31,639 bases of DNA from a virus: positions 1-31,639 of IMG/VR virus record IMGVR_UViG_3300035670_000891, one strand, 5' to 3'. A program made the translations under genes and the position numbers. The notes beneath the pieces were generated by a model, which was not told the origin of the DNA, ran no database searches, and saw only the letters and a program-made list of their open reading frames with translations. Positions 1-11,583 of this stretch are shown here, in pieces. Numbering within the stretch: position 1 is the first letter of the stretch; each line of letters starts with the position of its first letter.

Positions 1-119
1 TGTTTGCCTATTGAAGCGCAGTCAGGGCGGTTGCAGGTGCATCTCTTATCTATCGGCTTATGTACTGGGATGAGGGAAAAGCCATACGCCAATAGCGGTA
101 ACGTTTCATGTGCTTGCAT
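1..119 (-). CDS. Bifunctional DNA primase/polymerase, N-terminal fragment
   Basis: Only the first 39 codons are in the window; the gene continues past the left edge. The peptide starts MQAHETLPLLAYGFSLIPVH and continues with KPIDKRCTCNRPDCASIGK. An early aromatic-Gly-Phe-x-hydrophobic-Ile-Pro-Val strand followed by a C-x-C...C cluster ending in S-x-GK is characteristic of the N-terminus of the primase-polymerase (Prim-Pol) family that phages and plasmids use to prime and extend DNA. The ATG at 119 is the only start available, because the upstream reading frame has no alternative, but its ribosome-binding site is weak. It is the last visible gene of the leftward replication operon that begins with the helicase. 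It shows that the small genes at 181-1569 lie inside a phage replication block rather than in a host flank. The catalytic residues lie outside the window, so the call rests on the N-terminal signature alone. Confidence 0.65.
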   Translation of the reverse strand, partial: MQAHETLPLLAYGFSLIPVHKPIDKRCTCNRPDCASIGK

Positions 120-200
120 ATTATGCTGCTTTCTGTGTGTAGTTATGCCTTCGTTTGGTGTTATGCACCGTTTTGTGTGTTCACTTTGCGTTAGAGCGCA
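120..200 (+). other. Left boundary of cassette array: attI-like or half attC site
   Basis: This stretch ends in GCGTTAGAGCGCA (188-200), the same core and flank that closes the complete attC at 464-540. Two further GTTATGC motifs precede it at 142-148 and 160-166, so three GTTA motifs occur within 60 bases. No convincing partner core of the form RYYYAAC lies upstream; the only TAAC, at 99-102, is inside the primase start. The site could therefore be an attI-like receptor, which carries repeated GTT boxes instead of a palindrome, or the 3' half of an attC. The crossover would fall between G190 and T191. The strand given is the canonical attC reading direction. Confidence 0.5.
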
Positions 201-441
201 AATCCTCCACAAACTCTGTCGCATTCGGAACGTCAGCCCATGCCTTTGTCCAGCGCTCAAGAGCAATCTCCAGTTCGACGGCATTCTTGGCAACTGCTTC
301 TGCATCTTTGCGTCCCTGCCGCTCTCCGGCTTTGTAAGCCGCTTGGCAAGCTGTTTCAATTGCGCCAAGGTGCGATTTCCCAAACCTGCCGTACAGGTCA
401 GTGAATTGCTTGCTGCGTTTCTTCCAGTCTGCAAATCCCAT
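181..441 (-). CDS. Cassette ORF 1, hypothetical protein of 86 aa
   Basis: The protein is small, charged and mostly helical, without a signal peptide or membrane segment. The segment QGRKDAEAVAKNAVELEIAL (residues about 43-62) looks amphipathic and may form a coiled coil. I do not recognise the family. The start at 441 is supported by GGAGAAAGACAT just upstream. The ORF fills the cassette between crossover points 190 and 530 and is transcribed in the phage operon direction, opposite to usual cassette polarity. Its last codons, RSNAK, come from the recombination core: CGC-TCT-AAC-GCA-AAG-TGA crosses the junction at 190/191, so the stop codon lies in sequence outside the cassette. A role as a phage accessory or defence-related protein is possible but has no support in the sequence. 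Confidence 0.7.
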   Translation of the reverse strand: MGFADWKKRSKQFTDLYGRFGKSHLGAIETACQAAYKAGERQGRKDAEAVAKNAVELEIALERWTKAWADVPNATEFVEDLRSNAK

Positions 442-463
442 ATGTCTTTCTCCGCAGTAAAAA

Positions 464-540
464 TGCGCTCTAACCCGTCGCTCAACACGGACGCAGGCGA
501 TAAAGCTGCCTGCGCCGGTTAGCTCAGGCGTTAGAGCGCA
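464..540 (+). other. attC: attC recombination site (cassette 1/2 junction)
   Basis: This is the best preserved site. A perfect 11-base inverted repeat, TGCGCTCTAAC (464-474) and GTTAGAGCGCA (530-540), forms the outer arms and contains the consensus cores RYYYAAC and GTTRRRY. A central stem, CGCAGGC (492-498) with GCCTGCG (508-514), closes on a 9-base loop. Between them, CGGACGC on the 5' side faces GCGCCG on the 3' side, leaving one unpaired A at the position of the extrahelical base of classical attC sites. The 3' half, GGTTAGCTCAGGCGTTAG, follows the usual layout CTTAACTCAAGCGTTAG, which fixes the orientation as + strand. The crossover is expected between G530 and T531. Confidence 0.88.
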
Positions 541-724
541 TGGCCATCCTGCACCCTTTGCACGTCACATCCTCTGGGTCAAGACCGGCATTCGACTCAA
601 GGAACCACATCTCGTTAAGTTCCTTTCCGCAGAATGTCGAGTTGTTGTCTGCTGCGTGTAGCGTTTCGTGCCGCTCGTAGCCTGTTTTCTTCTTGCATCT
701 CCGTGCGTAATGCAAAAGTTTCAT
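524..724 (-). CDS. Cassette ORF 2, small zinc-binding-type protein of 66 aa
   Basis: The protein has a putative metal-binding arrangement: H19 and H23 in the segment RHETLH, C32 in TFCGKEL, and the pair C55-x2-C58 in VTCKGC. Short proteins with a histidine, a CG turn and a C-terminal VTC-x2-C pair are common among phage and mobile-element hypotheticals and are usually described only as zinc-finger-like. The start at 724 is preceded by AAAGGAGAGACTGAC, a strong ribosome-binding site. The ORF occupies the cassette between crossovers 530 and 837. It ends in MRSNA encoded across the junction (TCT-AAC-GCC-TGA), with the stop at 524-526 supplied by the adjacent attC. Function is unknown; DNA or RNA binding is an inference from the metal ligands only. 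Confidence 0.75.
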   Translation of the reverse strand: MKLLHYARRCKKKTGYERHETLHAADNNSTFCGKELNEMWFLESNAGLDPEDVTCKGCRMAMRSNA

Positions 725-770
725 GTCAGTCTCTCCTTTATCTATTTGCCGGCGTCGGCAAAGTGATCCA

Positions 771-843
771 GCATCTAACTCTCCGTTCCAGGCGCGACCT
801 CGCGCATAAGGCCGCTCACGGCCGCTTACCTTCGGCGTTAGAC
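771..843 (+). other. attC: attC recombination site (cassette 2/3 junction)
   Basis: The 5' core ATCTAAC (773-779) and the 3' core GTTAGAC (837-843) both match RYYYAAC and GTTRRRY. The 3' half, GCTTACCTTCGGCGTTAGAC, follows the canonical CTTAACTCAAGCGTTAG arrangement on the + strand. The interior holds two short perfect hairpins, GCGCGA-CC-TCGCGC and GGCCG-CTCA-CGGCC, instead of one long stem, so its folding differs from that of the 464-540 site. The crossover is expected between G837 and T838. The 3' end of the next leftward ORF (stop at 816-818) lies inside it. Confidence 0.8.
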
Positions 844-1193
844 ATTGCCGCGTCGATTGCGCCGTCCATGTCTCTTCCGTCTCTCGCCACGGTCTTGAAC
901 CGGATCACTCCACTCCACGGCGATTCGTCTGAAATTCCGAAGCCGCATTCACGGCGCAGCCAGCGGTATCGTTCGGCGTCTTTTCGGAGAGCGTCAGCTT
1001 CGCCGCCCCTCAAAGCGGCGTTGGGCATCATGTCAGTCTCATTGGTCGTGTACGCTATGGTTCCTTCGCTCAGTTCGGCGCTGGTCGTCTCGATCACCAC
1101 CGTAACGTGCGGGTGGCAATTCGCGTTCAGCCACTCGATCACCGGGCGGGTGATGGATTCAAATTCTTTGCGCTGCTGTTCTGTCATCGTCAT
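816..1193 (-). CDS. Cassette ORF 3, phage accessory protein with DAERYRWLRR motif, 125 aa
   Basis: The start at 1193 (MTMTEQQRKEF) is chosen because CAGGAGAAATGAA precedes it; an in-frame extension to 1325 would run back through an attC site. The protein has an N-terminal part resembling early-region phage proteins (FESITRPVIEWLNANCHPHV) and then the widespread phage motif DAERYRWLRR at about residues 72-81. It closes with GRDMDGAIDAAM, the usual end of this family. Its molecular function is unknown. The final residues SNAEGKRP and the stop are encoded by the attC site, so the natural protein probably ended near the AIDAAM segment before the gene became a cassette. A relative of the central motif is encoded at 9890-10168 in the rightward block of the same phage. 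Confidence 0.78.
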   Translation of the reverse strand: MTMTEQQRKEFESITRPVIEWLNANCHPHVTVVIETTSAELSEGTIAYTTNETDMMPNAALRGGEADALRKDAERYRWLRRECGFGISDESPWSGVIRFKTVARDGRDMDGAIDAAMSNAEGKRP

Positions 1194-1226
1194 TTCATTT
1201 CTCCTGTTGCCGCTGTCGTGGGTCGC

Positions 1227-1294
1227 GGCCCAACCCATCATTCCACCTGACCTGCGCATAAAGCCGCGCAGGCCGCTGAATTCATGCGTTATGG
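1227..1294 (+). other. attC: attC recombination site (cassette 3/4 junction)
   Basis: The 5' core GCCCAAC (1228-1234) is followed by CCATCATTCC. The 3' part reads GAATTCATGCGTTATGG, again the canonical + strand attC order. The central stem CCTGCGC (1251-1257) pairs perfectly with GCGCAGG (1266-1272) across an 8-base loop, ATAAAGCC, like the stem and loop of the 464-540 site. The outer arms pair imperfectly, as expected when the bases after the crossover G (1288) come from the neighbouring cassette. The stop codon of cassette ORF 4 (1282-1284) lies within it. Confidence 0.8.
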
Positions 1295-1569
1295 GTCTTC
1301 GGCAACATGCGCCACCGAATTCCAAGTGCGAACCGTTGCGCTACCCGGTGCAAAACGTTCGGCCCAGTTGGCAGCGAAAACCTCAAATCCTCATACGACG
1401 ATAGCGTCATTTCCCACAGAGGTTCGGGTGGCCCTGAAATAGTCAAACTGCCCACACGAGGTATCGGCAACGCCGGAGCCATAAGATCGCGTCCCGTCGC
1501 CCACAGAACCGCCCTGCGAAACCAGACCCCTAACCTTGGTGTTTCCAGTTTGTCGGTTACGTTTTCCAT
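1282..1569 (-). CDS. Cassette ORF 4, hypothetical protein of 95 aa
   Basis: I do not recognise this protein. The start at 1569 (MENVTDKLE) is preceded by AAAGGAGAATGCG; the reading frame is open further to 1626, but no better ribosome-binding site is seen there. It has a hydrophobic, basic N-terminal third (WFRRAVLWATGRDLMAPALP) that may be membrane-associated, though no clean transmembrane helix is obvious. The C-terminus, MLPKTHNA, is encoded through the recombination core (CAT-AAC-GCA-TGA), again placing the stop in the neighbouring attC. It is the cassette closest to the helicase and would be the first of the four transcribed. Confidence 0.62.
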   Translation of the reverse strand: MENVTDKLETPRLGVWFRRAVLWATGRDLMAPALPIPRVGSLTISGPPEPLWEMTLSSYEDLRFSLPTGPNVLHRVAQRFALGIRWRMLPKTHNA

Positions 1570-1616
1570 CGCATTCTCCTTTTTCGCACCGTCATGCCAG
1601 CGCCGACTTTTCAAAA

Positions 1617-1652
1617 CCCCTAACACGTCGCTCGTGCGGGACGGCGCTGGAT
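1617..1652 (+). other. Half attC at right end of cassette array
   Basis: CCCCTAAC (1617-1624) followed by ACGTCGCTCGTGCGGGACGG matches the 5' half of the 464-540 site (TAACCCGTCGCTCAACACGG) with the same spacing and the same GGACG step. No matching 3' half with GCGTTRRRY follows: the sequence passes directly into the helicase stop codon at 1675. A 9-base inverted repeat, CCAGCGCCG near 1597-1605 and CGGCGCTGG at 1642-1650, also spans this end. The site is probably a truncated last attC. Confidence 0.65.
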
Positions 1653-1674: not shown

Positions 1675-4161
1675 TCATGAGGCTTTCTTCAAAAAGTTGG
1701 ATTGAGACTTGGCCCACTTGATATTTTCATGGGTTATCCAGTCCTTCACTGATTCAATCATAGGGCCAGCAACCTTGTCCAATTGATTTGATGGATAGCA
1801 ACCAACCATATTTTTATACTTGTGATACGCGGCACCATCCTTCATGCCTTTGGATCGAGTCCAACTCAGGAGTGCGCTGTAAATGGCCTGCTTATCCTCC
1901 AAGCTGTATTTCCTAGCCTTCCTCGATAGCTGTACAAGTTCCTCGTCTTCAACCTCTTGCGGCTTTGCAACTGGCTTAGGCTCAAAGGAACAGACGGGAC
2001 ACTTGCGTAATGACGGCTTATAAACTGCAAAGCACGATGGACAGACTCGCGGCAACCGTTCATTCTTCTTTTCCTCCTGTTTAGGCTTCCCATCATCAAG
2101 CTCGTAGGGTATCTCTTCTGTCGGCCATCCCAATCTGCGGACTACTCCGGCATGGTCGAGAATTAAGGCTCTTTCCTTGCCATCATGGGGACGAAGCACC
2201 CGGCCACACATTTGAATGAATCGAATCAATGACTTAGTAGGTCTAGCCAGGATGCAGCATGAGGTAGCAGGTACATCGAACCCCTCGGCAAGCATCGAGC
2301 AGTTGCTCAGAATAGTGAATTCCCCGCGTCTAAAGCCATCTATGAGCGGTTTTCGTTCCTCTTCTGGCATGTACCCATCAACGTGTCGAGCATCTATGCC
2401 CTGGGCGCGAAATTCTTCAACGATGTGCTTTGAGTGCATGACATTGACCGCGAACACGACAGTCTGCTCTCCCTGGGCCAACTTAATCCAGTGCTTGACG
2501 ATATCCCCAACCAGTTTGCCCTTATCCACTGCCTTACCTAGCTGAGTCTTGTCATAGTCCCCGTTGGTGATTTTGATCTTGTCGAGTTCTGGTTCTGATG
2601 GGGCGTATATATCGACATCAACCAAGAACCCTTGTTCAATCAGCATAGGGATTGAGGCTCCTGTCACCAAGTCCTGCCAGAGCGGCTCGCCTCCGAGCCA
2701 TGAGTGCTTCGCAGCCATCGCCTTTGCCCACGGTGTAGCCGTCAGGCCGATGATGATGCAGTTGCTATGGAGTTCTATCAACTTGTGGAATGCCTTGCTT
2801 GCCGGGGTCGTGTGGCACTCGTCCAGGATCAAAATTTCGAACATGTTGTACTTGCGCCGAGCCATTGTCTGAACCGAGCAGACGACGATCTGTGAATTGG
2901 CTTCCCATGTGTTCATCCCTTGCATGATGCCAACCTTCATACCGAGCTTTTCAAATGCTGCAACGGATTGCTTGATGAGTTCGATTCGGTTGCAGACAAA
3001 AGCCACACGCTTACCGTTGGCTACTGCCTTCTGGATTATGTCTGCTGCCACGCGGGTTTTTCCTGAATTATGCGTAACAGTGAAGTCTCCCATAAGATAC
3101 CTATGATTACCATCCACTTCCCACCCGTAGTAGTCATCCTCGACAAGAATCTCAACTTTGAACCCTGTGCGAAGTACAGACTTCTTTTGCAGCCTATTGA
3201 ATGCCTTATGCTTGACCGTTAGCATATTTGAAAAATCGCCAGAGATTGAGACTCGATAGTAAATCCCTCCAGCCCCTGTCTGACAATACTTTTCAGATTC
3301 GCTTTTGTACGCAGAAAAACCAAGCGACCTAGCCACAAAACAAACATCATCAGCCAATCGTTCAGACTTGCTTATCCAGTCGTAATGACCATTGCCAAGA
3401 TGACAATCAGTATCCAGCAATCCTGCAAGCACCTCATACCGCGCCTCAACAGATGCCGTTTTATATTGATGTGGGATAAACTTTTCTCCAGCAGTTGTAC
3501 CCATCAATCCAAGATTTCTTAGCTTAACAGTTAGCGGATTACCTACGCCTCTTGGATTGGTCAAATTCACTAGATCACATTTATCAGACTTGGATACCCA
3601 TCCTTGAACATCTGTAGCCAATTCTATGATTCGATCTTGGATTGCTCTTTCTGGATTTGATATTGTCGGTGAGCCACCACCTAAACATCCATCACCAATC
3701 AATGCGCCTAGAAGCCAAGGATGAATTGGCAAGTCATCATTTCCACCATCAAAATTTTGAACACAAACACGATAGAGTTTGTGGCAATGCTTCCTCCACT
3801 GAGACCACCCTAGCCATTCATTCACCGATACATCAACAACCTCGCCAGTCTCGGTATGCACTAATGACAAGATATGCCCTAGATTGACAACGAATGACTC
3901 GCCTTTTACCGGGATTACCATAGCCATCTGCTGACGACCACGATGAAGATTTAGCACCGTCCTGAATGATCCATCATCGCCAATCAATTTGTCACCGATT
4001 CCAACATCCTCGGCAACCTTCATTGATCCATCGGCCATCAGTATTTTCTGGCCTTTGGCATGGCATCCAGTTGGCATCACCATGACAACCCGCTTCTTTC
4101 CTTCCCGAATCTTCTCCCGCAACTTCTCGATACCAGACTGCTGATACCAACGCAGTTCCAT
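1675..4161 (-). CDS. SF2 DNA helicase interrupted by an intein
   Basis: The translated precursor has 828 aa; the spliced enzyme would have 495. Helicase landmarks, in precursor numbering, are: Walker A split as MPTG (29-32) and SGKT (366-369), DECH box 447-450, TATP 474-477, motif VI QMCGRVLRP 650-658, and a C-terminal zinc ribbon with C707-x2-C710 and C721-x2-C724. This layout fits phage DEXH helicases of the RecQ/UvsW/D10-like type that unwind replication or recombination intermediates. The start at 4161 (MELRWYQQSG) is preferred because AAGGAGAGGCAA precedes it; the frame is open to 4275 but without support. It is the first long gene of the leftward replication operon, with the cassettes and primase downstream. 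Activity should depend on intein removal, because the ATP-binding loop is interrupted. Confidence 0.9.
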   Translation of the reverse strand: MELRWYQQSGIEKLREKIREGKKRVVMVMPTGCHAKGQKILMADGSMKVAEDVGIGDKLIGDDGSFRTVLNLHRGRQQMAMVIPVKGESFVVNLGHILSLVHTETGEVVDVSVNEWLGWSQWRKHCHKLYRVCVQNFDGGNDDLPIHPWLLGALIGDGCLGGGSPTISNPERAIQDRIIELATDVQGWVSKSDKCDLVNLTNPRGVGNPLTVKLRNLGLMGTTAGEKFIPHQYKTASVEARYEVLAGLLDTDCHLGNGHYDWISKSERLADDVCFVARSLGFSAYKSESEKYCQTGAGGIYYRVSISGDFSNMLTVKHKAFNRLQKKSVLRTGFKVEILVEDDYYGWEVDGNHRYLMGDFTVTHNSGKTRVAADIIQKAVANGKRVAFVCNRIELIKQSVAAFEKLGMKVGIMQGMNTWEANSQIVVCSVQTMARRKYNMFEILILDECHTTPASKAFHKLIELHSNCIIIGLTATPWAKAMAAKHSWLGGEPLWQDLVTGASIPMLIEQGFLVDVDIYAPSEPELDKIKITNGDYDKTQLGKAVDKGKLVGDIVKHWIKLAQGEQTVVFAVNVMHSKHIVEEFRAQGIDARHVDGYMPEEERKPLIDGFRRGEFTILSNCSMLAEGFDVPATSCCILARPTKSLIRFIQMCGRVLRPHDGKERALILDHAGVVRRLGWPTEEIPYELDDGKPKQEEKKNERLPRVCPSCFAVYKPSLRKCPVCSFEPKPVAKPQEVEDEELVQLSRKARKYSLEDKQAIYSALLSWTRSKGMKDGAAYHKYKNMVGCYPSNQLDKVAGPMIESVKDWITHENIKWAKSQSNFLKKAS
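3067..4065 (-). mobile_element. LAGLIDADG-type intein in helicase Walker A loop
   Basis: The insertion spans 333 residues (helicase precursor 33-365). It starts with the splice cysteine in CHAKGQKILMADGSMKVAED (blocks A-like) and has a block B-like segment VVNLGHILSL. It ends in YLMGDFTVTHN, with the penultimate His and terminal Asn needed for Asn cyclisation; the next extein residue is Ser. Two dodecapeptide-like segments, LLGALIGDGCL (intein residues about 118-128) and LAGLLDTDCHL (213-223), mark a LAGLIDADG homing-endonuclease domain. The second has Cys where Gly is usual. The insertion point, between MPTG and SGKT, is a favoured intein site in P-loop ATPases. Confidence 0.9.
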
Positions 4162-4274
4162 TTGCCTCTCCTTATGCCTCCTTGTGAGCGCCGAATTTCT
4201 TTCTGCGCTTGAGTGTTGATTTGGATTTTTGCCGACAATTCTCAGCAAAACCTTGCCATGAGCACGTTGAATCA

Positions 4275-4310
4275 AAAGTCAAAGGCAAAGTCAAAGGCAA
4301 AGTCAAAGGC
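4275..4310. repeat. Three perfect copies of a 12-base repeat
   Basis: AAAGTCAAAGGC occurs three times head to tail at 4275-4286, 4287-4298 and 4299-4310, about 110 bases upstream of the helicase start. It may be an iteron-like binding site, or simple slippage. Confidence 0.85.
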
Positions 4311-4390
4311 AAGAGCAATTCCTATCTCACCTGAGTAACTTCCAATACTCTACCCCCACTTTTCGCCGAAACTGCAAAATACTTTCAAAT

Positions 4391-4406
4391 GTTAGTGGTC
4401 ACTATC
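4391..4406. promoter_or_regulatory. Operator-like palindrome, copy 1
   Basis: GTTAGTGGTCACTATC: 7-base arms GTTAGTG and CACTATC with one mismatch. It is one of three related 16-base palindromes between the helicase and the 53-aa gene. Confidence 0.5.
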
Positions 4407-4493
4407 GCCTCTAGCCCATGACTGGCTTGAAAATAAAGTTTAGTGAAAAACGCTGAAACTACTTGACAAGCAATTGTGCGGCTTTCGGCATAA

Positions 4494-4509
4494 GTGAGTG
4501 CTTACTAAC
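4494..4509. promoter_or_regulatory. Operator-like palindrome, copy 2
   Basis: GTGAGTGCTTACTAAC: 6-base arms with one mismatch around a 4-base centre. It lies just downstream of the TTGACA at 4463-4468, where a repressor would cover a transcription start. Confidence 0.5.
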
Positions 4510-4544
4510 CCAGGAACCCTTGCCATTAATGGGCTTGCCAAAGT

Positions 4545-4556
4545 GGTTATCCGCAC
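4545..4556 (+). repeat. GTTATCCGC motif, copy 1
   Basis: GGTTATCCGCAC is repeated exactly, in inverted orientation, at 5002-5013, and its 9-base core recurs at 5069-5077. Here it is followed by GTATCCACA. Confidence 0.6.
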
Positions 4557-4579
4557 AAAGGTATCCACAAGAAATTCAA

Positions 4580-4595
4580 GTTAGTACTCACTAAC
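4580..4595. promoter_or_regulatory. Operator-like palindrome, copy 3
   Basis: GTTAGTACTCACTAAC: perfect 6-base arms GTTAGT and ACTAAC around a 4-base centre. It is the best copy of the three and lies 20 bases beyond the stop of the 53-aa gene. Confidence 0.55.
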
Positions 4596-4614
4596 ATCTC
4601 AAGCCTTGCCATTG

Positions 4615-4776
4615 CTAGGAATTCCGAACACGCTTACCTGGCCTGCCACGCTTCTTGTGAAAGCAAGACCTGCAAGTTGCCCTGCGTCCCATCGTCCCAT
4701 CCCTATTCCGTCTTTTGTGAAACTCGTCCTCGTACTTCTCCTCGCCGCATGTGAGGCAGGTCTTGAGCTTTGGCAT
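4615..4776 (-). CDS. Small zinc-knuckle protein with basic tail, 53 aa
   Basis: The sequence begins MPKLKTCLTCGEEKYEDEFH and has a second pair, C35-x2-C38, in TCRSC. C7-x2-C10 with C35-x2-C38 forms a four-cysteine zinc site of a type common in small phage proteins. The tail, KKRGRPGKRVRNS, is basic and contains the RGRP core of an AT-hook, so DNA binding is plausible. The start at 4776 is chosen for the GGGGATCACTC upstream; an in-frame ATG at 4791 overlaps the upstream stop as TGATG and would add five residues, so translational coupling is possible. It is the second gene of the leftward transcript that starts at the divergent control region. Confidence 0.65.
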   Translation of the reverse strand: MPKLKTCLTCGEEKYEDEFHKRRNRDGTMGRRATCRSCFHKKRGRPGKRVRNS

Positions 4777-4790
4777 GAGTGATCCCCACA

Positions 4791-4967
4791 TCACTTGATC
4801 ATCCGCTTACACTGGTTACAAATCTTGGATGTCTCGGTGGTGAATTGGGCTACACTTCTCAGCTTCTTGCAGCCAACGCACATCCTTGTCTTCATGTTCT
4901 GATAGAGAGGCTGATCCTTGTTGGTGTTGTGCCGGTAAGCCTCAGTATCCTTTGGGTCAAATCTCAT
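4791..4967 (-). CDS. Small four-cysteine protein, 58 aa
   Basis: The sequence begins MRFDPKDTEAYRHNTNKDQP and carries C30-x2-C33 (MCVGCKK) and C50-x2-C53 (ICNQCKR), a probable single zinc ribbon. A strong ribosome-binding site, CACAGGAGGATTT, precedes the ATG at 4967. It is the first gene of the leftward early transcript, 18 bases from the expected start of the candidate promoter at 4992-5021. The stop overlaps the possible start of the next gene. Position and size suggest an early regulator or host-interaction protein, but nothing in the sequence identifies the target. Confidence 0.68.
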   Translation of the reverse strand: MRFDPKDTEAYRHNTNKDQPLYQNMKTRMCVGCKKLRSVAQFTTETSKICNQCKRMIK

Positions 4968-4991
4968 AAATCCTCCTGTGAATGAGCCACC

Positions 4992-5021
4992 ATCCTAGCA
5001 AGTGCGGATAACCTTAACCAA
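4992..5021 (-). promoter_or_regulatory. Candidate leftward early promoter with embedded motif
   Basis: On the minus strand, TTGGTT (5021-5016) and TAGGAT (4997-4992) are separated by 18 bases. The spacer contains GTTATCCGC. The predicted start gives a short leader with the AGGAGG site of the 58-aa gene. Confidence 0.45.
5002..5013 (-). repeat. GTTATCCGC motif, copy 2
   Basis: This is the exact inverted copy of GGTTATCCGCAC at 4545-4556. It sits between the -35 and -10 elements of the leftward promoter candidate. Confidence 0.6.
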
Positions 5022-5060
5022 TTGATTTTTGCTATCACTAGGGCCGATAGAAAAATTCAA

Positions 5061-5090
5061 TTGGATTCGCGGATAACTGACCACCATAAT
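5061..5090 (+). promoter_or_regulatory. Candidate rightward early promoter with embedded motif
   Basis: TTGGAT (5061-5066) and CATAAT (5085-5090, five of six consensus bases) are separated by 18 bases. The spacer contains GCGGATAAC (5069-5077), the same 9-base motif as in the leftward promoter. The gene at 5125 would follow after a leader of about 28 bases. Confidence 0.5.
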
Positions 5091-5124
5091 TCGTTTCATC
5101 AGATAAACAACACGGGAGCAAAGC

Positions 5125-5307
5125 ATGATTACCGACGCAGACCGGATCAAGTGGATTGCAGAGAACATCAACTACATGGAACATGGCTCAGGCAAGTACA
5201 ACTTCTGGCCTCATGAGGATTCAGACCCGCACCTTCTGTTTGATGAGAAGTGCGTGGGAATGTCTTTGATCGAATACATCGACTACCGCATTGGAGAACA
5301 GAAATGA
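5125..5307 (+). CDS. Early phage hypothetical protein, 60 aa
   Basis: This is the first gene of the rightward early operon. Its start is supported by ACGGGAGCAAAGC upstream. The sequence MITDADRIKWIAENINYMEH followed by a C-terminal GMSLIEYIDYRI resembles the large group of short phage proteins built around a D-A-x-R-(I/Y)-x-W motif and a C-terminal helix of the type LR-x-AIDAAM, also seen at 816-1193 and 9890-10168. No function is known for the group. The gene overlaps the next start as ATGA, suggesting coupled translation. Confidence 0.72.
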   Translation: MITDADRIKWIAENINYMEHGSGKYNFWPHEDSDPHLLFDEKCVGMSLIEYIDYRIGEQK

Positions 5308-5525
5308 AATCTCCAGTATCGCCAAGGATCGTGGCAGAGGTAGCCAGAATCCAATTCAATTCAGAGTGCAATAGAAAGACGTTCAAGTGCTTCCGTACAG
5401 AGACTCTAGGCCGTCTTCGCGCTGTTGCATCAATAATCCCTGACGACATCGAAGTGATGGGGTGGATTAATGAGGCCAAATTCACTGCTTACGACTATGC
5501 ACCACGTCACAATCTGGAGTGGTAA
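5304..5525 (+). CDS. Early phage hypothetical protein, 73 aa
   Basis: The start at 5304 (MKSPVSPRIVAEVARIQFNS) overlaps the upstream stop as ATGA; a longer in-frame start at 5250 would lie deep inside the preceding gene and is disfavoured. The protein is basic in its N-terminal half (FNSECNRKTFKCFRTETLGR) and more acidic after that. It has no membrane segment or recognisable domain. The tight packing with its neighbours supports translation. Confidence 0.65.
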   Translation: MKSPVSPRIVAEVARIQFNSECNRKTFKCFRTETLGRLRAVASIIPDDIEVMGWINEAKFTAYDYAPRHNLEW

Positions 5526-5527
5526 TC

Positions 5528-5752
5528 ATGAAAGTCAAAGAACACTACTGGGATGCTCACATGGAACAAGAACGGCAGCAACAAGAGATGGAAGAACACA
5601 TGTACGCTTTGACCATGGAAGCCCTGATTGAAGCGGCAAAGCACCTGAAGCAAGAGCAAATGGATGTACTTATGTATCACTGTGGTTTCACTGACAACGA
5701 CCTAAAAGGAGCAGCAAAAAATGAAATTCGCCTCAACTTCCGGCACTTTTGA
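5528..5752 (+). CDS. Early phage hypothetical protein, glutamine/glutamate-rich, 74 aa
   Basis: The sequence begins MKVKEHYWDAHMEQERQQQE and is followed by a predicted helical region rich in Glu, Gln and Met. The ATG at 5528 is preferred over the one at 5519 because GGAG (5516-5519) then lies 8 bases upstream. The 3' end overlaps the next gene by 32 bases, which is long but common in this compact block. It may be an oligomerising helical protein. It is not assigned to a known family. Confidence 0.62.
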   Translation: MKVKEHYWDAHMEQERQQQEMEEHMYALTMEALIEAAKHLKQEQMDVLMYHCGFTDNDLKGAAKNEIRLNFRHF

Positions 5753-6305
5753 AAACCCGCCCGCTGGAGCGCACCCAGCCGTCTGTACCAAGATGATCGA
5801 CATGGGTACGCAAGAAACCACATGGCAGGGTACAACCAAGTTCGCACACAAGGTAAAGATCGTCTTTGAACTGGCTGAGAAGATGAAGGATGGTCGGCCA
5901 TTCCTTACCATGCGAGACTTCACTGTTTCCCTGCACGAGAACGCTGCATTGCGGGCATTCCTTGCGTCATGGCGTGGTCGTGACTTCACCGATGAAGAAC
6001 TGGCAGGTTTCGACCCAAAAGTGCTTATCGGCAAGGGATGCTTGCTGTCCCTGATCGAGAAAGGGGAGTACATCAATATTGACTCCTGTATGCGCCTTCC
6101 GAAAGGCATGGAAGCTCCTGTCCCGGTTGGTGATACGGTGTTCTTCTCACTGTCAGAGTTCGACCAGGCTGAATTCGACAAGCTCTCCGACAGAATCAGG
6201 GAGAAGATCATGAAGTCCCCAGAGTATCAATCACTGAAAGGGGGCACTTCTACCAATCATGGGATGATTAGTAGCACCAATACTGAAGAAGACTGCGTGT
6301 TCTGA
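5721..6305 (+). CDS. Replication-associated protein, probable ssDNA-binding
   Basis: This 194-aa protein starts MKFASTSGTFENPPAGAHPA with an AAGGAG site upstream. Its pattern is a short N-terminal PPAGxHxAxC segment, a beta-rich core with conserved HKVKIVFEL, an LHENAALRAFLASWRGRxF helix, and a KGCLL strand. It matches a group of phage proteins regularly encoded beside PD-(D/E)XK nucleases and helicases, and usually presumed to bind single-stranded DNA. That role is inferred from context; no OB-fold motif is definitive by eye. It sits directly before the nuclease gene with a 2-base gap, so the two are almost certainly co-expressed. Confidence 0.6.
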   Translation: MKFASTSGTFENPPAGAHPAVCTKMIDMGTQETTWQGTTKFAHKVKIVFELAEKMKDGRPFLTMRDFTVSLHENAALRAFLASWRGRDFTDEELAGFDPKVLIGKGCLLSLIEKGEYINIDSCMRLPKGMEAPVPVGDTVFFSLSEFDQAEFDKLSDRIREKIMKSPEYQSLKGGTSTNHGMISSTNTEEDCVF

Positions 6306-6307
6306 CC

Positions 6308-7102
6308 ATGATGCTATCCAAACAACAAGGCTCGGCCTACGCATCACAAGCATGTCACTGGTACGACAAAGACGGCAATCCTGCATATACCGTCAAGAGC
6401 GCAAAGGGTGAAGATCGCCCGACTACTCTACGGGATGCGCGGAAACTCAATCTTTTCCCATCGGTTACTACTATTCTCAAGGTAGCTGCAAACGAAGGAT
6501 TGAACCGCTGGATCAAGTCAAACCTCTTGATGGCTGCGGCAACACTTCCTCGCATCGAGGGTGAATCTGCCGACGAGTGGATCAAGCGTGTTGAAGAAGA
6601 TGCCAAGCAACAGTCTAAGGATGCAGCAGCCCTCGGAACATCAATTCATGCCAGCCTTGAACTCGCATACGAAGGCAAGGATTGGCCTGCTGAACATGAT
6701 CCGCATGTACTTGCGACACGAGATGCTGTAGCAAAGCACTTTGGGCAGCAGGAATGGGCGTCTGAACGGTCTTTTTCCCATGATCTAGGGTTCGGTGGCA
6801 AGATTGATCTGGCAAGCCCAGAAGTCGTTTTAGACTTCAAGACCTCAGCCTTCGATGAGACCAAGAAAGACTCAGAGTTTGGCTACGACGAACATCTGAT
6901 GCAGTTGTCAGCCTATGCAACAGGACTTGGGACACCAAATGCCAGACTAGCCAACGTCTATATCTCCACTACCATCCCTGGCCTTGTAAAGATCAAGGAA
7001 TGGACAAGCGAGGAGTCAGAAAAGGGGATCAAGATGTTTGCTTGCCTGCTGAAGTATTGGCAGGTGAAAAACAAGTACGTCGGAGGTGCAAATGTCACTT
7101 GA
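6308..7102 (+). CDS. PD-(D/E)XK exonuclease (RecB/Cas4-like)
   Basis: The 264-aa protein contains the nuclease core in order: GTSIHASLEL with H114, GKIDL with D167, LDFKTS with D176 and K178, and QLSAYA with Q199 and Y203. This is the arrangement of RecB-family and Cas4-like phage nucleases, which resect DNA ends during recombination-dependent replication or degrade host DNA. An N-terminal segment, LFPSVTTILKVAANEGLNRW, is typical of the phage branch. The start may be 6308 or 6311; neither has a strong ribosome-binding site, so translation is probably coupled to the gene ending at 6305. The nearby helicase, primase and putative ssDNA-binding protein point to a phage replication/recombination module. 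Confidence 0.88.
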   Translation: MMLSKQQGSAYASQACHWYDKDGNPAYTVKSAKGEDRPTTLRDARKLNLFPSVTTILKVAANEGLNRWIKSNLLMAAATLPRIEGESADEWIKRVEEDAKQQSKDAAALGTSIHASLELAYEGKDWPAEHDPHVLATRDAVAKHFGQQEWASERSFSHDLGFGGKIDLASPEVVLDFKTSAFDETKKDSEFGYDEHLMQLSAYATGLGTPNARLANVYISTTIPGLVKIKEWTSEESEKGIKMFACLLKYWQVKNKYVGGANVT

Positions 7103-7304
7103 AATCTACTACGGGGAAAAGTTCATCATCGAGCTTGTCCGATGGTTCGAAGTCAAGGACGGGCATCTTGACACTACGACTATGACCGACAAGTACGCCA
7201 TCCACGGGCGAACCACGGCAACTGAGCCTCAGATTATGAAGTGGGCCAATGATATGGGGTACAAAGTGGTTGCAGTGTGTGACATGGATGCTATCTACAA
7301 TTGA
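7092..7304 (+). CDS. Early phage hypothetical protein, 70 aa
   Basis: The sequence begins MSLEIYYGEKFIIELVRWFE. The ATG at 7092 follows GGAGG at 7082-7086, which favours it over an upstream GTG. The C-terminal part, EPQIMKWANDMGYKVVAVCD, looks like a helix followed by a buried strand. There is no family assignment. It overlaps the end of the nuclease gene by 11 bases. Confidence 0.65.
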   Translation: MSLEIYYGEKFIIELVRWFEVKDGHLDTTTMTDKYAIHGRTTATEPQIMKWANDMGYKVVAVCDMDAIYN

Positions 7305-7312
7305 GTTTTGAT

Positions 7313-7357
7313 AGAAAAATACCATCGCAAAAAGCATCCTGCGGTGGATATTTTTCT
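7313..7357. terminator. Long AT-rich stem-loop, possible terminator or processing site
   Basis: AGAAAAATACCATCGC (7313-7328) pairs with GCGGTGGATATTTTTCT (7341-7357) around a 12-base loop, with one bulge and one mismatch. On the + strand the right arm contains five T residues. It lies just after the stop of the 70-aa gene and before the next probable start, so it could attenuate the operon or act as an RNA processing site. Confidence 0.5.
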
Positions 7358-7384
7358 GATCTAATCTTGAGATGGTGGCTCGAA

Positions 7385-7552
7385 ATGCGTAACTGGCTCT
7401 GGAAACTCTGGTATTCGTACAACTACAGGCTGTGCATGGTTAATGCTTATCTTGCCGACAATCGCTGCGACCACTTGGCTAGGGCTGAGTGTCTTACCAA
7501 GGCTATGGTATGGCAGCGCGAGTATGTCATGTGCGGGAGGAAATTGGTATGA
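7385..7552 (+). CDS. Early phage hypothetical protein, Trp-rich start, 55 aa
   Basis: The sequence begins MRNWLWKLWYSYNYRLCMVN, with a strongly aromatic N-terminus that may contact membrane or nucleic acid, and then a helical, Ala- and Cys-containing part. The first ATG is at 7385. A TTG at 7301 would overlap the preceding stop and add 28 residues, but that extension would be translated through the stem-loop at 7313-7357. The 3' end overlaps the next gene as ATGA. The start is uncertain and the family unknown. Confidence 0.5.
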   Translation: MRNWLWKLWYSYNYRLCMVNAYLADNRCDHLARAECLTKAMVWQREYVMCGRKLV

Positions 7553-7752
7553 AAAACCGTATCGAAGAATCCTTGGAACTCGCCAAGGCGAACATCAGCA
7601 TCGCACTGCAACACATGGACGACACCACCATGATGTACAACCATACGAGCAGGGCTATTCGAACGCTGAAAGAAGTCGAGTACTTGCTATGGCGAGAGAG
7701 CCATACAAGTGGAGGCATGAACACTGAGATTGCCGGGATCACCGACACGTAA
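7549..7752 (+). CDS. Early phage hypothetical protein, helical, 67 aa
   Basis: The sequence begins MKNRIEESLELAKANISIAL, an amphipathic helix that probably continues through HMDDTTMMYNHTSRAIRTLK. The ATG at 7549 follows GGAGGAAATTGGT. It overlaps the previous stop by 4 bases. No domain is recognised. Confidence 0.62.
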   Translation: MKNRIEESLELAKANISIALQHMDDTTMMYNHTSRAIRTLKEVEYLLWRESHTSGGMNTEIAGITDT

Positions 7753-7778
7753 ACTAGTCTAAAACTAAGGAGAAACAA

Positions 7779-8108
7779 ATGAACATTCAAGCAGAAAAAG
7801 TGACCATCAACGGCGTCGATTACATCCGTGCCGACCAAGTGCAAGAAGCGAAGCCAAATGGCAACCGTTACGTTGTGGTTGTAGACAGAGGATGGATTTT
7901 CGCTGGAGACATGAGTATTGTAGAAGTGTTCGGCGAAAAGCACATTCGCCTTGACCGTGCACTACACGTGTTCAAGTGGGAATCTGTTGGCTTTGCCGGG
8001 ATGATTAAAAATACCGAGAAAGCCGATTTACGGCCAATAGACCCCGTGGAAATCCCCTTTGACGCAAAAATCTACCATGTGCAAGTGAGCGATTCATGGG
8101 GGCTCTGA
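7779..8108 (+). CDS. Phage hypothetical protein, 109 aa, upstream of Gly-Tyr repeat
   Basis: A good ribosome-binding site (AAGGAGAAACAA) precedes the ATG. The sequence begins MNIQAEKVTINGVDYIRADQ, then has a beta-rich core with YVVVVDRGWIFAGD and ends in VQVSDSWGL. The first half (a VTINGVxYIR strand followed by VVVVDRGWIFAGD) is a recurring phage module of unknown function. In related phage proteins, as I recall them, this module runs directly into a Gly-rich repeat in a single reading frame. Here the stop at 8106-8108 separates it from the repeat ORF that begins inside it at 8096. The repeat lies in the -1 frame, so either coupled reinitiation or a frameshift at the run of five G (8098-8102) would join them. 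Confidence 0.7.
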   Translation: MNIQAEKVTINGVDYIRADQVQEAKPNGNRYVVVVDRGWIFAGDMSIVEVFGEKHIRLDRALHVFKWESVGFAGMIKNTEKADLRPIDPVEIPFDAKIYHVQVSDSWGL

Positions 8109-8395
8109 CTAGACCAGTCGGCTACGGCAACGGTTACGGCTGCGGCCACGGCTACGGCAACGGCAACGGTTACGGCTACGGCTACGGCTACGGCAACGGC
8201 AACGGCAACGGCTACGGCTACGGCTACGGCAACGTTGACGGCTACGGTGACGGCTACGGTGACGGCAGCGGCAACGGCTACGGCAACGGCAACGGCTACG
8301 GCTACGGCAACGGTTACGGCTACGGCAACGGTGACGGCAGCGGTTACGGCAGCGGTTACGGCACGATCAGGTCAAGCAAGCGCCGCCGACCATAA
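8096..8395 (+). CDS. Gly-Tyr/Gly-Asn dipeptide repeat ORF, 99 aa
   Basis: After MGALTRPV, the ORF is a nearly pure run of about 40 dipeptides, each Gly followed by Tyr, Asn, Asp or Ser, ending in a basic tail (RSSKRRRP). The ATG at 8096 overlaps the upstream gene by 13 bases, with no separate ribosome-binding site. Low-complexity G-Y-G sequence suggests a flexible, self-associating or surface-sticky segment. It may be the C-terminal domain of the 109-aa protein read by a -1 shift rather than an independent protein. Because all repeats are six bases, expansion or contraction would keep the frame. Confidence 0.55.
   Translation: MGALTRPVGYGNGYGCGHGYGNGNGYGYGYGYGNGNGNGYGYGYGNVDGYGDGYGDGSGNGYGNGNGYGYGNGYGYGNGDGSGYGSGYGTIRSSKRRRP
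8120..8362 (+). repeat. Hexanucleotide repeat tract (GGC-NAC type)
   Basis: About 40 imperfect six-base units of the form GGC/T followed by TAC, AAC, GAC or AGC. The third position of the Gly codon is C or T only, and the variable codon always ends in C. Higher-order blocks such as GGCTACGGCAACGGC recur, which suggests growth by slippage or unequal recombination. Confidence 0.92.
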
Positions 8396-8555
8396 GAGCA
8401 ACACCCACCCACGCCAACGTGCTGGCGCGAACACCAGTTTAACAACTGTTACAGAAAGGACTGAAAAGTTGGTCGCAAATCTGAACGGGATAGGCCACCG
8501 TGGGAATAAGGTCGGCGTGGTGTGGGAACCGTGCCGCCTAGATAAGGAGAAGGAA

Positions 8556-8600
8556 ATGAAAACATACTTTGTTGATGAGGAGAAAGAGGAATGGAGATAG
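8556..8600 (+). CDS. Possible 14-aa leader peptide
   Basis: The ORF encodes MKTYFVDEEKEEWR and has an excellent ribosome-binding site (AAGGAGAAGGAA). It ends 10 bases inside the next gene, and its codons for EEKEE form the Shine-Dalgarno sequence of that gene. It may serve only to bring ribosomes to the start at 8591, or be a remnant of a longer gene. Confidence 0.35.
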   Translation: MKTYFVDEEKEEWR

Positions 8601-8761
8601 CGCTTTCGACATACCGTACAGAAAGTAACACCCCAGTCATGTACCGGCTGTTGCAGAAGAAAGACGGTACGATAGTTTTACAAGGGGCGTATCAGTTTTG
8701 GGACAGCGATGGTTGCTGCGGCCACGAATGGCGGGACATTATGACAGAGGTTGAGGAATGA
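8591..8761 (+). CDS. Small phage hypothetical protein, 56 aa
   Basis: The sequence begins MEIALSTYRTESNTPVMYRL and continues with a beta-rich part, DGTIVLQGAYQFWDSDGCCG, ending in HEWRDIMTEVEE. A purine-rich GAGGAGAAAGAGGA precedes the ATG. The WxD...CC...HEW pattern resembles small phage proteins of unknown role. It partly overlaps the possible leader peptide at 8556-8600. Confidence 0.6.
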   Translation: MEIALSTYRTESNTPVMYRLLQKKDGTIVLQGAYQFWDSDGCCGHEWRDIMTEVEE

Positions 8762-8815
8762 TCCTCGATGCGTCCGTCTTAATCCCTTTTTTTTCAGGGC
8801 ATATTCAGAACGGAA

Positions 8816-9157
8816 ATGAATCCAACTGATAAAGAACTACTGGAACTTGCAGCAAAAGCTGGTGATGTTGATGCCGTGTGGATGCCAGAGTTGGAACAGT
8901 TTGCCGCTAATGGCACATCAAATCCTGTGTGGAATCCACTTACTGACGACGGCGATGCACTGCGCTTGGCTGCAAAGCTGGAGATTGACATCGTATATGC
9001 CGACGACGACGTAACAGCGTGGTTTATTGTTGCAAGGCCAGGGTGGGATAACGGTTGCGTGACAACAGCGGAAGAGCCGTATGGTCACGACAAAGTTATG
9101 GCGACTCGACGCGTAGTAGTTCGCGCTGCTGCTGAAATTGGAAAGTGCATGAAATGA
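8816..9157 (+). CDS. Phage hypothetical protein with NPLxDDGDALRLA motif, 113 aa
   Basis: The sequence begins MNPTDKELLELAAKAGDVDA and has a central WNPLTDDGDALRLAAKLEID segment, a signature of a widespread group of phage and prophage early proteins without known function. The start at 8816 is preceded by GAACGGAA. A short hairpin, CCCT-T-run-AGGG (about 8787-8802), lies just upstream. It overlaps the next gene as ATGA. Confidence 0.7.
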   Translation: MNPTDKELLELAAKAGDVDAVWMPELEQFAANGTSNPVWNPLTDDGDALRLAAKLEIDIVYADDDVTAWFIVARPGWDNGCVTTAEEPYGHDKVMATRRVVVRAAAEIGKCMK

Positions 9158-9483
9158 CCGCTATATTTGTTCCCGCAAAAAATCCTTGGGGCGGCAATCC
9201 ACAGGAGGAAGTTGAATCTCTACGTCAGAAAGTGAGAGAGTTGGAAGAGGGGGCTAAGTTCTTCCATGAAATCGAGAACCTAAAGGAGCAGATTGCGGAA
9301 GAAAAGCAACTCCGCCGAGATATCGAGGAGTTCTATGCCGGTGCTGCCATAGATGCCAAGCGGTATCGCAGGTTTGTGGCATACATGATCGGCCCGAGGA
9401 CTGATCTAGATGACGCATTTGTCGCTTCCACAACCAAGGAAGAATATGATGTAATCATAGACGAGGAGACGGAAAATGACTGA
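9154..9483 (+). CDS. Coiled-coil phage protein with DAKRYRRF motif, 109 aa
   Basis: The start at 9154 overlaps the preceding stop. The sequence begins MTAIFVPAKNPWGGNPQEEV and is followed by a heptad-rich coiled coil (VESLRQKVRELEEG...NLKEQIAEEKQL, residues about 20-58). It then has the module DAKRYRRFVAYMIGPRTDLD, a divergent form of the DAERYRWLRR module found in neighbours. The combination of a variable coiled coil with this module is repeated several times in this part of the genome. Confidence 0.65.
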   Translation: MTAIFVPAKNPWGGNPQEEVESLRQKVRELEEGAKFFHEIENLKEQIAEEKQLRRDIEEFYAGAAIDAKRYRRFVAYMIGPRTDLDDAFVASTTKEEYDVIIDEETEND

Positions 9484-9583
9484 CATAGTTGAACGTCTGC
9501 TAGACAAAGGCATGGGGTTGCACCCTGACCAAGTATAAGCAGCTGAGGAAATCAAGAGGCTGCGTAAGACCAGCATCGTATAA
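9476..9583 (+). pseudogene. Broken small phage gene with in-frame stop
   Basis: Translation from 9476 gives MTDIVERLLDKGMGLHPDQV and then TAA at 9536-9538. The same frame continues with AAEEIKRLRKTSIV to a second stop at 9581-9583. Phage proteins of this type usually read LHPDxVxxEAAxEIxRLR without interruption, so the first stop looks like a nonsense mutation. The remaining 20-aa peptide could still be translated. Confidence 0.5.
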
Positions 9584-9599
9584 CGGAGGTTGTAAACAG

Positions 9600-9893
9600 A
9601 TGAGCGAACTACAGGAAGAATATATTTCCAAGTTGGAAGGCACGGTGCGGGAATTGCGCCAGCGGGTAGCGGAGTTGGAGGCGAACGAACGTGCTTATGA
9701 GCGCATCGTCGGAAAGAAATCGTATCAAGAGATTGCGGATGAACTCGCCGCCAGCCAAGCACGAGAGCAACAGTTGCGGGAAGGTCTTGAACAAATTGTT
9801 AGCACCAAATGCACCGTCGGTGATTCTGTGAACATGTTCGCCAGAAGTCTGTTAGCTGTCCAAAACGACAAGTACAAGGAGCCTGAAAAGTGA
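9600..9893 (+). CDS. Coiled-coil phage protein, MSELQEEY paralogue A, 97 aa
   Basis: The sequence begins [20 protein letters not shown] and is mostly coiled coil (KLEGTVRELRQRVAELEANE, then further helices). An ACGGAGG site precedes the start. The first 27 codons are nearly identical in DNA to the start of the gene at 10173, so the two are recent duplicates or share a recombined module. Function is unknown; structural or regulatory oligomerisation is possible. Confidence 0.66.
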   Translation: MSELQEEYISKLEGTVRELRQRVAELEANERAYERIVGKKSYQEIADELAASQAREQQLREGLEQIVSTKCTVGDSVNMFARSLLAVQNDKYKEPEK

Positions 9894-10168
9894 TAGACCT
9901 TGAAGACCAGAAAAGTCGGATCAATAAAGCCTACGCACACACCGTTGGCACAGAGTCGTATGAGCGCCGCTTGTGCGTTGAGGAAATCGAATCCATGCGC
10001 CAACTTGTGAATGAGTTGAAGGATGATGCAGAACGGTATCGGTGGTTGCGTAGAAACTGCACATTCGATTTGAGCGGTGCACCAGGATGTCAGGCATGGT
10101 TCGATTTCCACTGGTTTAGCAGGATTCGCGCAACATGGACGAAGCCATCGCCAAGTACAAGGAGATGA
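9890..10168 (+). CDS. DAERYRWLRR-motif phage protein, 92 aa, C-terminus probably frameshifted
   Basis: A GTG start at 9890 overlaps the previous stop. The protein begins MIDLEDQKSRINKAYAHTVG and has the DDAERYRWLRRNC module at about residues 45-57. Beyond residue 78 it reads RIRATWTKPSPSTRR, unlike relatives. The -1 frame at 10120-10175 instead encodes [18 protein letters not shown], which matches the usual AIDAAM-type ending and lines up with GRDMDGAIDAAM of the gene at 816-1193. A one-base deletion, or a sequence error, near 10117-10128 would explain this. Confidence 0.6.
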   Translation: MIDLEDQKSRINKAYAHTVGTESYERRLCVEEIESMRQLVNELKDDAERYRWLRRNCTFDLSGAPGCQAWFDFHWFSRIRATWTKPSPSTRR

Positions 10169-10172
10169 TGCA

Positions 10173-10556
10173 ATGAGCGAACTACAGGAAGAATATATTT
10201 CTAAGCTGGAAGGCATGGTGCGAGAACTGCGTCAGCAGGTAGCAGCGCTTGAAGATCGCTTGATTACGGATGCTGGAGTAATCGGGGATTTGCAAAGACA
10301 ACTCGCTGCATGTGAGAAGGAGCGGGAGTATAACGTCCAACTTGAATGTGCTGTGGTCAATCTGCGCCAGCAAGTAGTAGAGTTGGAATCTACTTGGCTG
10401 TCGCCGGAAACTTACGAGAAGCTGATGCAGGAAAGGCAAGAGACTTTGCAACAACTCGCCGCCTGCCAAGCCGAGTGCGAAGAAGAAGCCCGACTCAACG
10501 GCATGGGTAGTGAACGCGAAGCTGCGCTCATGGCGAAGCCATCGACGCGGCGATGA
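10173..10556 (+). CDS. Coiled-coil phage protein, MSELQEEY paralogue B, 127 aa
   Basis: The ribosome-binding site AAGGAGATGATGCA lies inside the displaced end of the previous gene. The sequence begins [20 protein letters not shown]. Long heptad stretches follow, including [20 protein letters not shown] and [20 protein letters not shown]. It ends in [13 protein letters not shown], but the -1 frame encodes [14 protein letters not shown] up to 10573, again the typical family ending read out of frame. Paralogue A at 9600 shares only the N-terminal module. Confidence 0.62.
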
Positions 10557-10569
10557 AAGGAGAAAAAGA

Positions 10570-10758
10570 ATGAACCAGAAATTCCAACTAGGCGAGCGGG
10601 TCAAGAAGATCAAGGGTAGTTGGTGGCACGGCACGGTGGTCGGGACATACTCGACCCAATTGACGCCGGAAGGCTACTGCGTTGAATCATGGTACGAAGC
10701 GGGCAGTGTGCAGATTTATCCAGCCGCTGCGCTAGAGAAGTGGGAGCCGTGGAAATGA
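10570..10758 (+). CDS. dfrB-like: R67/DfrB-type dihydrofolate reductase homologue, 62 aa
   Basis: The protein aligns along its length with the SH3-like core of type B (R67) dihydrofolate reductase. [20 protein letters not shown] corresponds to [20 protein letters not shown] of R67, and the second half contains [10 protein letters not shown] and GSVQIYP. The active-site residues known for R67 (Lys32, Gln67, Ile68, Tyr69) correspond to K13, Q48, I49 and Y50, all present. R67-type enzymes are homotetramers that reduce dihydrofolate with NADPH and are intrinsically insensitive to trimethoprim. The gene lacks the roughly 20-residue disordered N-terminus of R67, which is dispensable. A GGAGAAAAAG site precedes the ATG. 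It sits among phage early genes and overlaps the next as ATGA. Activity is untested; a different role for this SH3-like fold in phage is possible. Confidence 0.82.
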
Positions 10759-10976
10759 GTAACTACGAAGAACGAGCCGCACTGTACTACGCTGTGCTTC
10801 GTAGGTTTCCGCCGAAAGACAAACTCACAGGTAAGGATTTAGACCACTACTGCCACACTGTACTGCAGAACGAAGAATTTAATCGCCGCATCTGTAAGTA
10901 CTTGGACAAGATGTGCAGCAGTACATCGCCGGAAACTTATGGGTTTGGCTACGACCAGATGGAGATGCAGGAATGA
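10755..10976 (+). CDS. Early phage hypothetical protein, 73 aa
   Basis: The start at 10755 overlaps the dfrB-like stop. The sequence begins [20 protein letters not shown] and has two cysteine-containing helices ([20 protein letters not shown]). The ending, [16 protein letters not shown], is acidic. It contains no known domain. Its short overlap with the gene on each side indicates that it belongs to the same translated series. Confidence 0.62.
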
Positions 10977-11320
10977 GTCCATTCTTGATGAACCTCGGTC
11001 TAGCGCCGATCCCGCCAACACCAAATGTTAGCAAGCCAGCAAAACAGAAGACGCCAAAAGCAAATAAATCTCGCGGGCCACGCAACGCCGGGATTATCGC
11101 CATGAGACTGCGTAATCTAGAACGGCGTGAGAATGATCTGATATCTGCTATCGACTACATACGTGAGAACAAGCAAGTGACAGTCAAGGCTCTCGGCTGG
11201 CGGTTTGAGTGGAGCCACGCAAAAGCAGAAGATATCATGTCTGTGCTGTATAAGCGCGAGAAGGTTACGAAGTGTGGGCCTAAGAATCAGACATGGTGGG
11301 AACCAGTATGCCTGGGCTAG
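10973..11320 (+). CDS. Basic protein with possible winged-helix C-terminus, 115 aa
   Basis: The first 45 residues are Pro/Lys-rich and probably disordered (PKANKSRGPRNAG). The rest has helices RLRNLERRENDLISAIDYIR and VTVKALGWRFEWSHAKAEDI followed by SVLYKREKVTKCG. This spacing of an R-E-N helix, a recognition-like helix and a K/R strand resembles a winged helix-turn-helix, so nucleic-acid binding and early regulation are plausible but unproven. The start at 10973 overlaps the previous stop by 4 bases. Confidence 0.6.
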   Translation: MSPFLMNLGLAPIPPTPNVSKPAKQKTPKANKSRGPRNAGIIAMRLRNLERRENDLISAIDYIRENKQVTVKALGWRFEWSHAKAEDIMSVLYKREKVTKCGPKNQTWWEPVCLG

Positions 11321-11583
11321 AACACGCAGTAAGCGACATGACCAAGCGCACCGATGCTGATCCGTATGGGTGTGCGAATCTACCGCGTAAGGATGGGTTC
11401 TACGCAACCGAACGTGTGTACCACCCAACCGGGTCGTACAACCTGGCGATGGTATGGGTGCCGGACGTGATGAGTAAGGAATGCAGGTACGACAATAGCC
11501 TAACCGATAGTCGATGCGCTACATGCGATAAACGTGGTAGCGGTGAGCAGTATGACAAGATGATAAGAAGGAGTGGAAAATGA
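11308..11583 (+). CDS. Cysteine-containing phage hypothetical protein, 91 aa
   Basis: The start is ambiguous among 11293, 11308 and 11338; GGTGGGA lies at a sensible distance from 11308. The body has an YHPTGSYNLAMVWVPDVMSK strand region and a C-terminal metal-site candidate, C-R-Y-D...C-A-T-C (residues about 66-79). It ends just inside the start of the DUF3310 gene. I do not recognise the family. Confidence 0.58.
   Translation: MPGLEHAVSDMTKRTDADPYGCANLPRKDGFYATERVYHPTGSYNLAMVWVPDVMSKECRYDNSLTDSRCATCDKRGSGEQYDKMIRRSGK

Follow-up and report, generated by a model that had tools for sequence, protein, structure and literature searches.

Integrons are familiar from bacteria, where a cassette is taken up beside the promoter and its gene is transcribed in the direction leading away from the integrase; each bacterial cassette carries its ORF on the top strand of its attC site. 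The viral arrays described here share with the class 1 and chromosomal integrons of Pseudomonadota the type of attC, the attC-to-intI geometry, the G|TTRRRY junctions and the one-gene cassettes. However, whereas the ORFs of those integrons stand on the top strand, those of the phage variant stand on the bottom strand and are read toward the integrase end instead of away from it, and the cassettes of the phage variant are shorter (median 422 bp, against 597 bp in bacteria).

Clusters of attC sites in phages were already published in 2023, among them one in MW202573, a relative of the phage studied here (Fig. 2D in Qi et al. 2023, PMC9892861); like the array described below, these CALINs are attC clusters without intI in phage genomes. 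The arrays of TJE1 and PH101 were presented in that work as having typical bacterial structure, and the TJE1 array is forward in our polarity analysis. The main text contains neither "reverse" nor "opposite", leaves the polarity of the MW202573 array unremarked, and describes no viral integrase clade. Its phage records of Vibrio anguillarum, Shewanella M16-3 and P1 resemble the integrase-bearing viral loci in holding intI and attC within one phage record; these integrons are host chromosomal or class 1 parts (Qi et al. 2023, PMC9892861), and their IntI proteins are 43-53% identical to our viral query and fall outside the sampling of our tree. A CALIN in a phage is thus of a kind already published; what is new is the systematic reversed polarity of the cassettes, together with a viral IntI clade. 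In the literature covered, which leaves out most subscription journals and every preprint, Qi et al. 2023 is the one directly relevant work on phage integrons, and no prior report of reversed polarity or of a viral IntI clade was found.

The array studied here lies at the left end of the window, by which we mean the whole stretch of 31,639 nucleotides that was analysed (IMG/VR record IMGVR_UViG_3300035670_000891). Its features, and those of its flanks, are as follows.

1-121, minus strand: beginning of a Prim-Pol type primase/polymerase that runs off the contig; an open minus frame that by eye resembles the Prim-Pol of the relative L001.
158-196, plus strand: attI-like left boundary, GTGTTATGC (158-166) followed by a G|TTAGAG junction (190-196); shared motif, moderate confidence.
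181-441, minus strand: cassette 1 ORF, 86 aa, stop just past the left junction; RBS GGAGAAAGACATATG; coding score reverse 15.5 versus forward 4.9.
468-536 (terminal repeat 464-540), plus strand: attC 1; 33.2 bits, E 3.7e-6; profile 41.8; fold z -5.5.
524-724, minus strand: cassette 2 ORF, 66 aa, stop within attC 1; RBS AAAGGAGAGACTGACATG; reverse 10.6 versus forward 3.6.
773-843, plus strand: attC 2; 25.4 bits, E 2.8e-4; profile 42.2.
816-1193, minus strand: cassette 3 ORF, 125 aa, stop within attC 2; RBS GGAGAAATGAAATG; reverse 25.3 versus forward 5.0.
1228-1294, plus strand: attC 3; 24.2 bits, E 5.3e-4; profile 36.6.
1282-1569, minus strand: cassette 4 ORF, 95 aa, stop within attC 3; RBS AGGAGAATGCGATG; reverse 8.6 versus forward 4.5.
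1618-1645, plus strand: putative fourth attC of which only the left half (R''-L'') is present, cut short towards the helicase; left-half score 10.7.
1675-4275, minus strand: intein-bearing DNA helicase, whose start is probably near 4161; phrog_16, E 2e-98; PF05203 Hint, E 2e-17.

A preliminary description of this DNA, made from its letters alone, had placed three attC sites in a phage replication operon, the first with a perfect 11-base terminal inverted repeat, and had proposed a covariance model as the check. Two models bear out the three positions. The first is a profile trained on 73 attC from bacterial arrays adjoining intI, with the orientation fixed by intI; its scores for the three sites are confined to the plus strand, the second-best score in the 31.6-kb window is 15.5, and the best in 100 shuffled windows is 27.2. 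The second is an independent covariance model built from the arms of 32 attC, all of them bacterial. With E-values calculated over the window, it returns the three sites on the plus strand at E 4e-6 to 5e-4, while its further window matches are all at E of at least 0.67 and the minus strand gives no match at the three places. For comparison, the attC threshold of Qi et al. 2023 (PMC9892861) is 20 bits. Scores obtained with the filters off were far lower for the three attC, apparently because of how that mode treats the long loop, and were set aside as misleading.

All three sites, each above 24 bits and paired in the alignments, have the R''/L''/L'/R' architecture, the G|TTRRRY core and an extrahelical base on the L'' side. 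In attC 1 the 11-base terminal repeat is indeed perfect (464-474/530-540), and folded as DNA the site is 5.5-5.7 standard deviations better than shuffles. The folding of attC 2 and attC 3 is less striking (z -0.4 to -2.2); the R boxes of attC 3 pair at only four of seven positions, one of them being the weak R box GTTATGG. The half site that had been noted at 1617-1652 is retained as a candidate left half-attC, which ranks sixth among the plus-strand left halves of the window under the profile model and is weak on its own, its support coming mainly from its position.

The G|TT junctions at 190, 530, 837 and 1288 delimit four one-gene cassettes, in agreement with the preliminary description. 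That description did not remark, however, on their polarity, which is opposite to that of bacterial cassettes. A bacterial-type cassette has its ORF between R' and R'' on the top strand of the attC; here all four ORFs lie on the bottom strand, the top strand of the sites being plus and the genes minus. Codon-usage scores favour the minus strand for all four ORFs with either codon table, the signal of cassette 4 being the weakest. A good RBS lies shortly beyond R'' for each ORF, and the stops of ORFs 2 to 4 fall in the R'-L' arm of the following site. A homologue of cassette 1, 58% identical, lies on the corresponding side of an attC in another viral array (L280:2771-2938), and named phages have no match to this cassette; cassette 3 matches the uncharacterised phage families phrog_16206, phrog_4621 and phrog_4029, and cassettes 2 and 4 have no homologue among the loci compared. 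When the array was compared as DNA with named phages and plasmids, only short matches appeared, several of them at attC sites. A separate observation is that the stretch DAERYRWLRR is common to cassette 3 (816-1193, minus) and to a non-cassette gene of the same phage (9890-10168, plus).

The window encodes a P22-type coat protein (phrog_283, E 2e-51) that is 68% identical to the coat of MW202573, a complete circular phage whose array has reversed ORFs as in the window. On the minus strand the order at the left end is helicase, four small ORFs and the primase start, so that both flanks are co-directional with the cassette ORFs, and the placement of the array in a phage replication operon stands. 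In the relative L001 the helicase (69% identical) and the Prim-Pol (PF09250, E 1.4e-36) flank one unrelated gene in the same order and orientation, with no scoring attC in the 15 kb examined; the array of the window has therefore been inserted where the replication operon varies. The helicase intein, with its Hint domain and a weak LAGLIDADG match, is also present in L001. Elsewhere in the window, the plus-strand ORF at 8096-8395 has GYGNG-like repeats and may be a low-complexity repeat protein or a non-coding repeat, and the plus-strand ORFs at 9600-9893 and 10077-10556 have a 14-residue stretch in common, likely through local duplication.

An intI gene elsewhere in the phage, which the preliminary description had suggested looking for, was not found in the 31.6 kb of this incomplete contig (tblastn with IntI1; related domain family). 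The locus has the features of a CALIN: its three attC lie within a few kb of one another, and no intI is nearby. Of the intI and adjacent attI of a complete integron it has an attI-like motif only. In the window GTGTTATGC stands 32 bp ahead of G|TTAGAG; in many integrase-bearing viral contigs a GTGTTAYGC-like sequence stands at -33 or -43 from G|TTRRRY, before cassette 1. Unlike these, the region of the window, where the preliminary description had put an attI-like or half site (142-200), has no CGAATT block, and the primase sits where intI would be. It is reasonable, but not proven, that the left boundary at 158-196 is attI-like.

The reversed polarity is not peculiar to this phage. Since the longest open frame alone gave ambiguous calls for GC-rich viral cassettes (157 of 214), it was replaced by Shine-Dalgarno (SD) and codon-usage tests. 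A search of viral contigs with one attC motif gave 79 stretches, and after addition of MW202573 and removal of near-duplicates 58 stretches with at least two attC; by coding potential, their cassettes of callable polarity are reversed versus forward at 200:0. Two further attC motifs gave 112:13, and a third set, the 43 loci found with one viral IntI, gave 38:0 for the arrays adjoining intI. In class 1 and chromosomal arrays of bacteria the direction is the opposite whichever codon table is used (3:48 with the viral-trained table, 1:51 with the bacterial-trained one). Plain ORF calling gives 159:29 in viral against 14:59 in bacterial arrays (Fisher p 2.7e-23, with cassettes treated as independent), and the SD-plus-start test 85:2 and 21:0 in viral arrays; some viral contigs are kin, so that none of these polarity counts is one of independent cases. 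Reversed polarity is general among the viral cassettes of these sets, and is found in more than 100 viral contig stretches besides the window, some with their own integron integrase.

All four array contigs that were screened for typical phage genes (terminase, coat, portal or tail) carry them: two have a P22-type coat and two have tail genes, one of the latter also having IntI and four attC; tail and virion proteins were also present among ten IntI loci examined. Forward arrays do exist in some viral records, namely TJE1 and L317. The latter (IMGVR_UViG_2834908352_000001) has intI and 14 attC and accounts for seven of the 13 forward cassettes in the two-motif set; its identifier resembles that of an isolate genome, and it is possibly a bacterial chromosomal integron inside a provirus prediction. 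Two further records are worth noting in their own right: L284 (KX853513, Virus Rctr41k) has at 4680-8813 an IntI-like gene with three weak attC-like sites in forward arrangement, and L213 carries at 3168-16360 two attC arrays of opposite orientation in one phage. An attC subtype, CGGTTAGCTCNNNCGTTAG, was considered as phage-specific and dropped: it occurs in none of 399 Pseudomonadota genomes, yet, with the sizes of the databases estimated, the difference in density is not significant.

Integrases accompany some of these arrays. In the tree, 27 viral IntI group together with support 100/96 in a single clade, whose sister clade contains IntI1. The viral clade is separate from all bacterial IntI and stays exclusive against 74 of them (SH-aLRT 93 in a quick tree). 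Many of these viral IntI adjoin reversed arrays with the canonical attC-to-intI geometry. More distant integrase-like viral proteins (L259, L262-L272; about 25-49% identical to the query) lie outside the main clade and may be further integrase lineages. A search of 48 further viral contigs with arrays and of the complete MW202573, which had no internal positive control, yielded no IntI, and most such phages would therefore need the enzyme in trans.

The preliminary description had also proposed that this phage carries, and perhaps exchanges, integron cassettes and is a vehicle for their transfer. Exchange is seen between related phages, L102 and L160, and not in the window phage, for which no close relative with different cassettes was found. 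The flanks of these two are 94-99% identical, and they have one cassette (A) and the units after it in common; L160 has an additional 430-bp cassette between cassette A and the following units, and the first cassettes of the two diverge exactly at the GTT after a common CTATTTGGC. Entire cassettes have been gained, lost or replaced in these phages. That the phage ferries ordinary bacterial cassettes, by contrast, is not supported, as the polarity is opposite, the cargo looks phage-like, and none of 33 multi-contig cassette clusters in this limited sample joins viral and bacterial arrays. Among 90 reversed viral cassette proteins, Pfam identifies four N6_N4_Mtase and two C5 DNA methyltransferases, and one each of Lar restriction alleviation, RNA ligase and exonuclease; PHROGs adds Mom-like modification, and the PADLOC matches, among those listed, are methyltransferases. 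Most of these proteins, like the four of the window, have no assigned function.

Taken together, the array is very probably a four-cassette CALIN representing a phage-adapted form of the integron, with genes on the attC bottom strand that are read with the phage operon. Its one-gene cassettes lie between helicase and primase in a phage that has a P22-type coat. Along the operon each unit consists of RBS, ORF and attC hairpin, and the ORF ends within an arm of the hairpin; in this layout cassettes could be added, lost or swapped with the operon intact. The promoterless genes would be expressed by read-through of phage transcription. As there is no integrase in the contig, the 48 other array contigs or MW202573, mobility would depend on an IntI that the host or a related phage provides in trans and that, if active in this phage, would recombine the folded bottom strand at G|TT. 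New cassettes would enter at the attI-like end, just ahead of the primase and farthest from the promoter. The bottom strand of the attC, being the non-template strand, might be aided in its folding. The array of the window may be decaying, with its last attC truncated and site 3 imperfect.

The strongest competing explanation, that an ordinary bacterial cassette block was caught once by illegitimate recombination or off-target insertion, is now inert, and has its polarity by accident, would account for the lack of intI, the truncated last attC and the degenerate site 3. It is nonetheless unlikely, since four of four reversed ORFs are improbable for such a block (reversed in bacteria: 14 of 73 by ORF calling, 1 of 52 by coding potential), the same polarity recurs in the other viral stretches, integrase-bearing ones included, and cassette 1 has its homologue in another viral array. 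Far less credible is the view that the hairpins are intergenic RNA elements of the phage operon, such as terminators or processing sites, and attC-like only: they do fold and lie between co-directional genes, but a model trained on bacterial integrons finds them with strand-specific E-values, an Rfam search of the window matched no family, related phages differ from one another in complete units bounded by G|TT, and elsewhere among phages sites of this kind lie beside intI and an attI-like site. Misassembly of an integron fragment onto a phage contig, conceivable for a single metagenomic contig, is equally improbable given that the genes on either side are arranged and oriented as in L001, every ORF runs in the direction of the operon, and the complete circular MW202573 with its related coat carries a comparable array.

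Beyond the phage-adapted CALIN of the window, we lean towards the view that phages have an integron lineage of their own, with a distinct IntI clade and a reversed cassette pool apart from the bacterial one, common to phages with intI and to those with attC only. Entry would be promoter-distal, transcription may aid folding and recombination of the bottom strand, and the arrays would be a store from which counter-restriction and other accessory genes are rapidly exchanged; the DNA methyltransferase, Mom-like and Lar-like antirestriction cargo suggests such a modular exchange of counter-defence functions. Many phages use integron sites, some together with a separate integrase clade, and have their cassette genes turned, so that cassettes would join the far end of a phage operon. 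Polarity would be a barrier between the bacterial and phage cassette pools, and a simple mark by which phage cassettes could be spotted in metagenomes.
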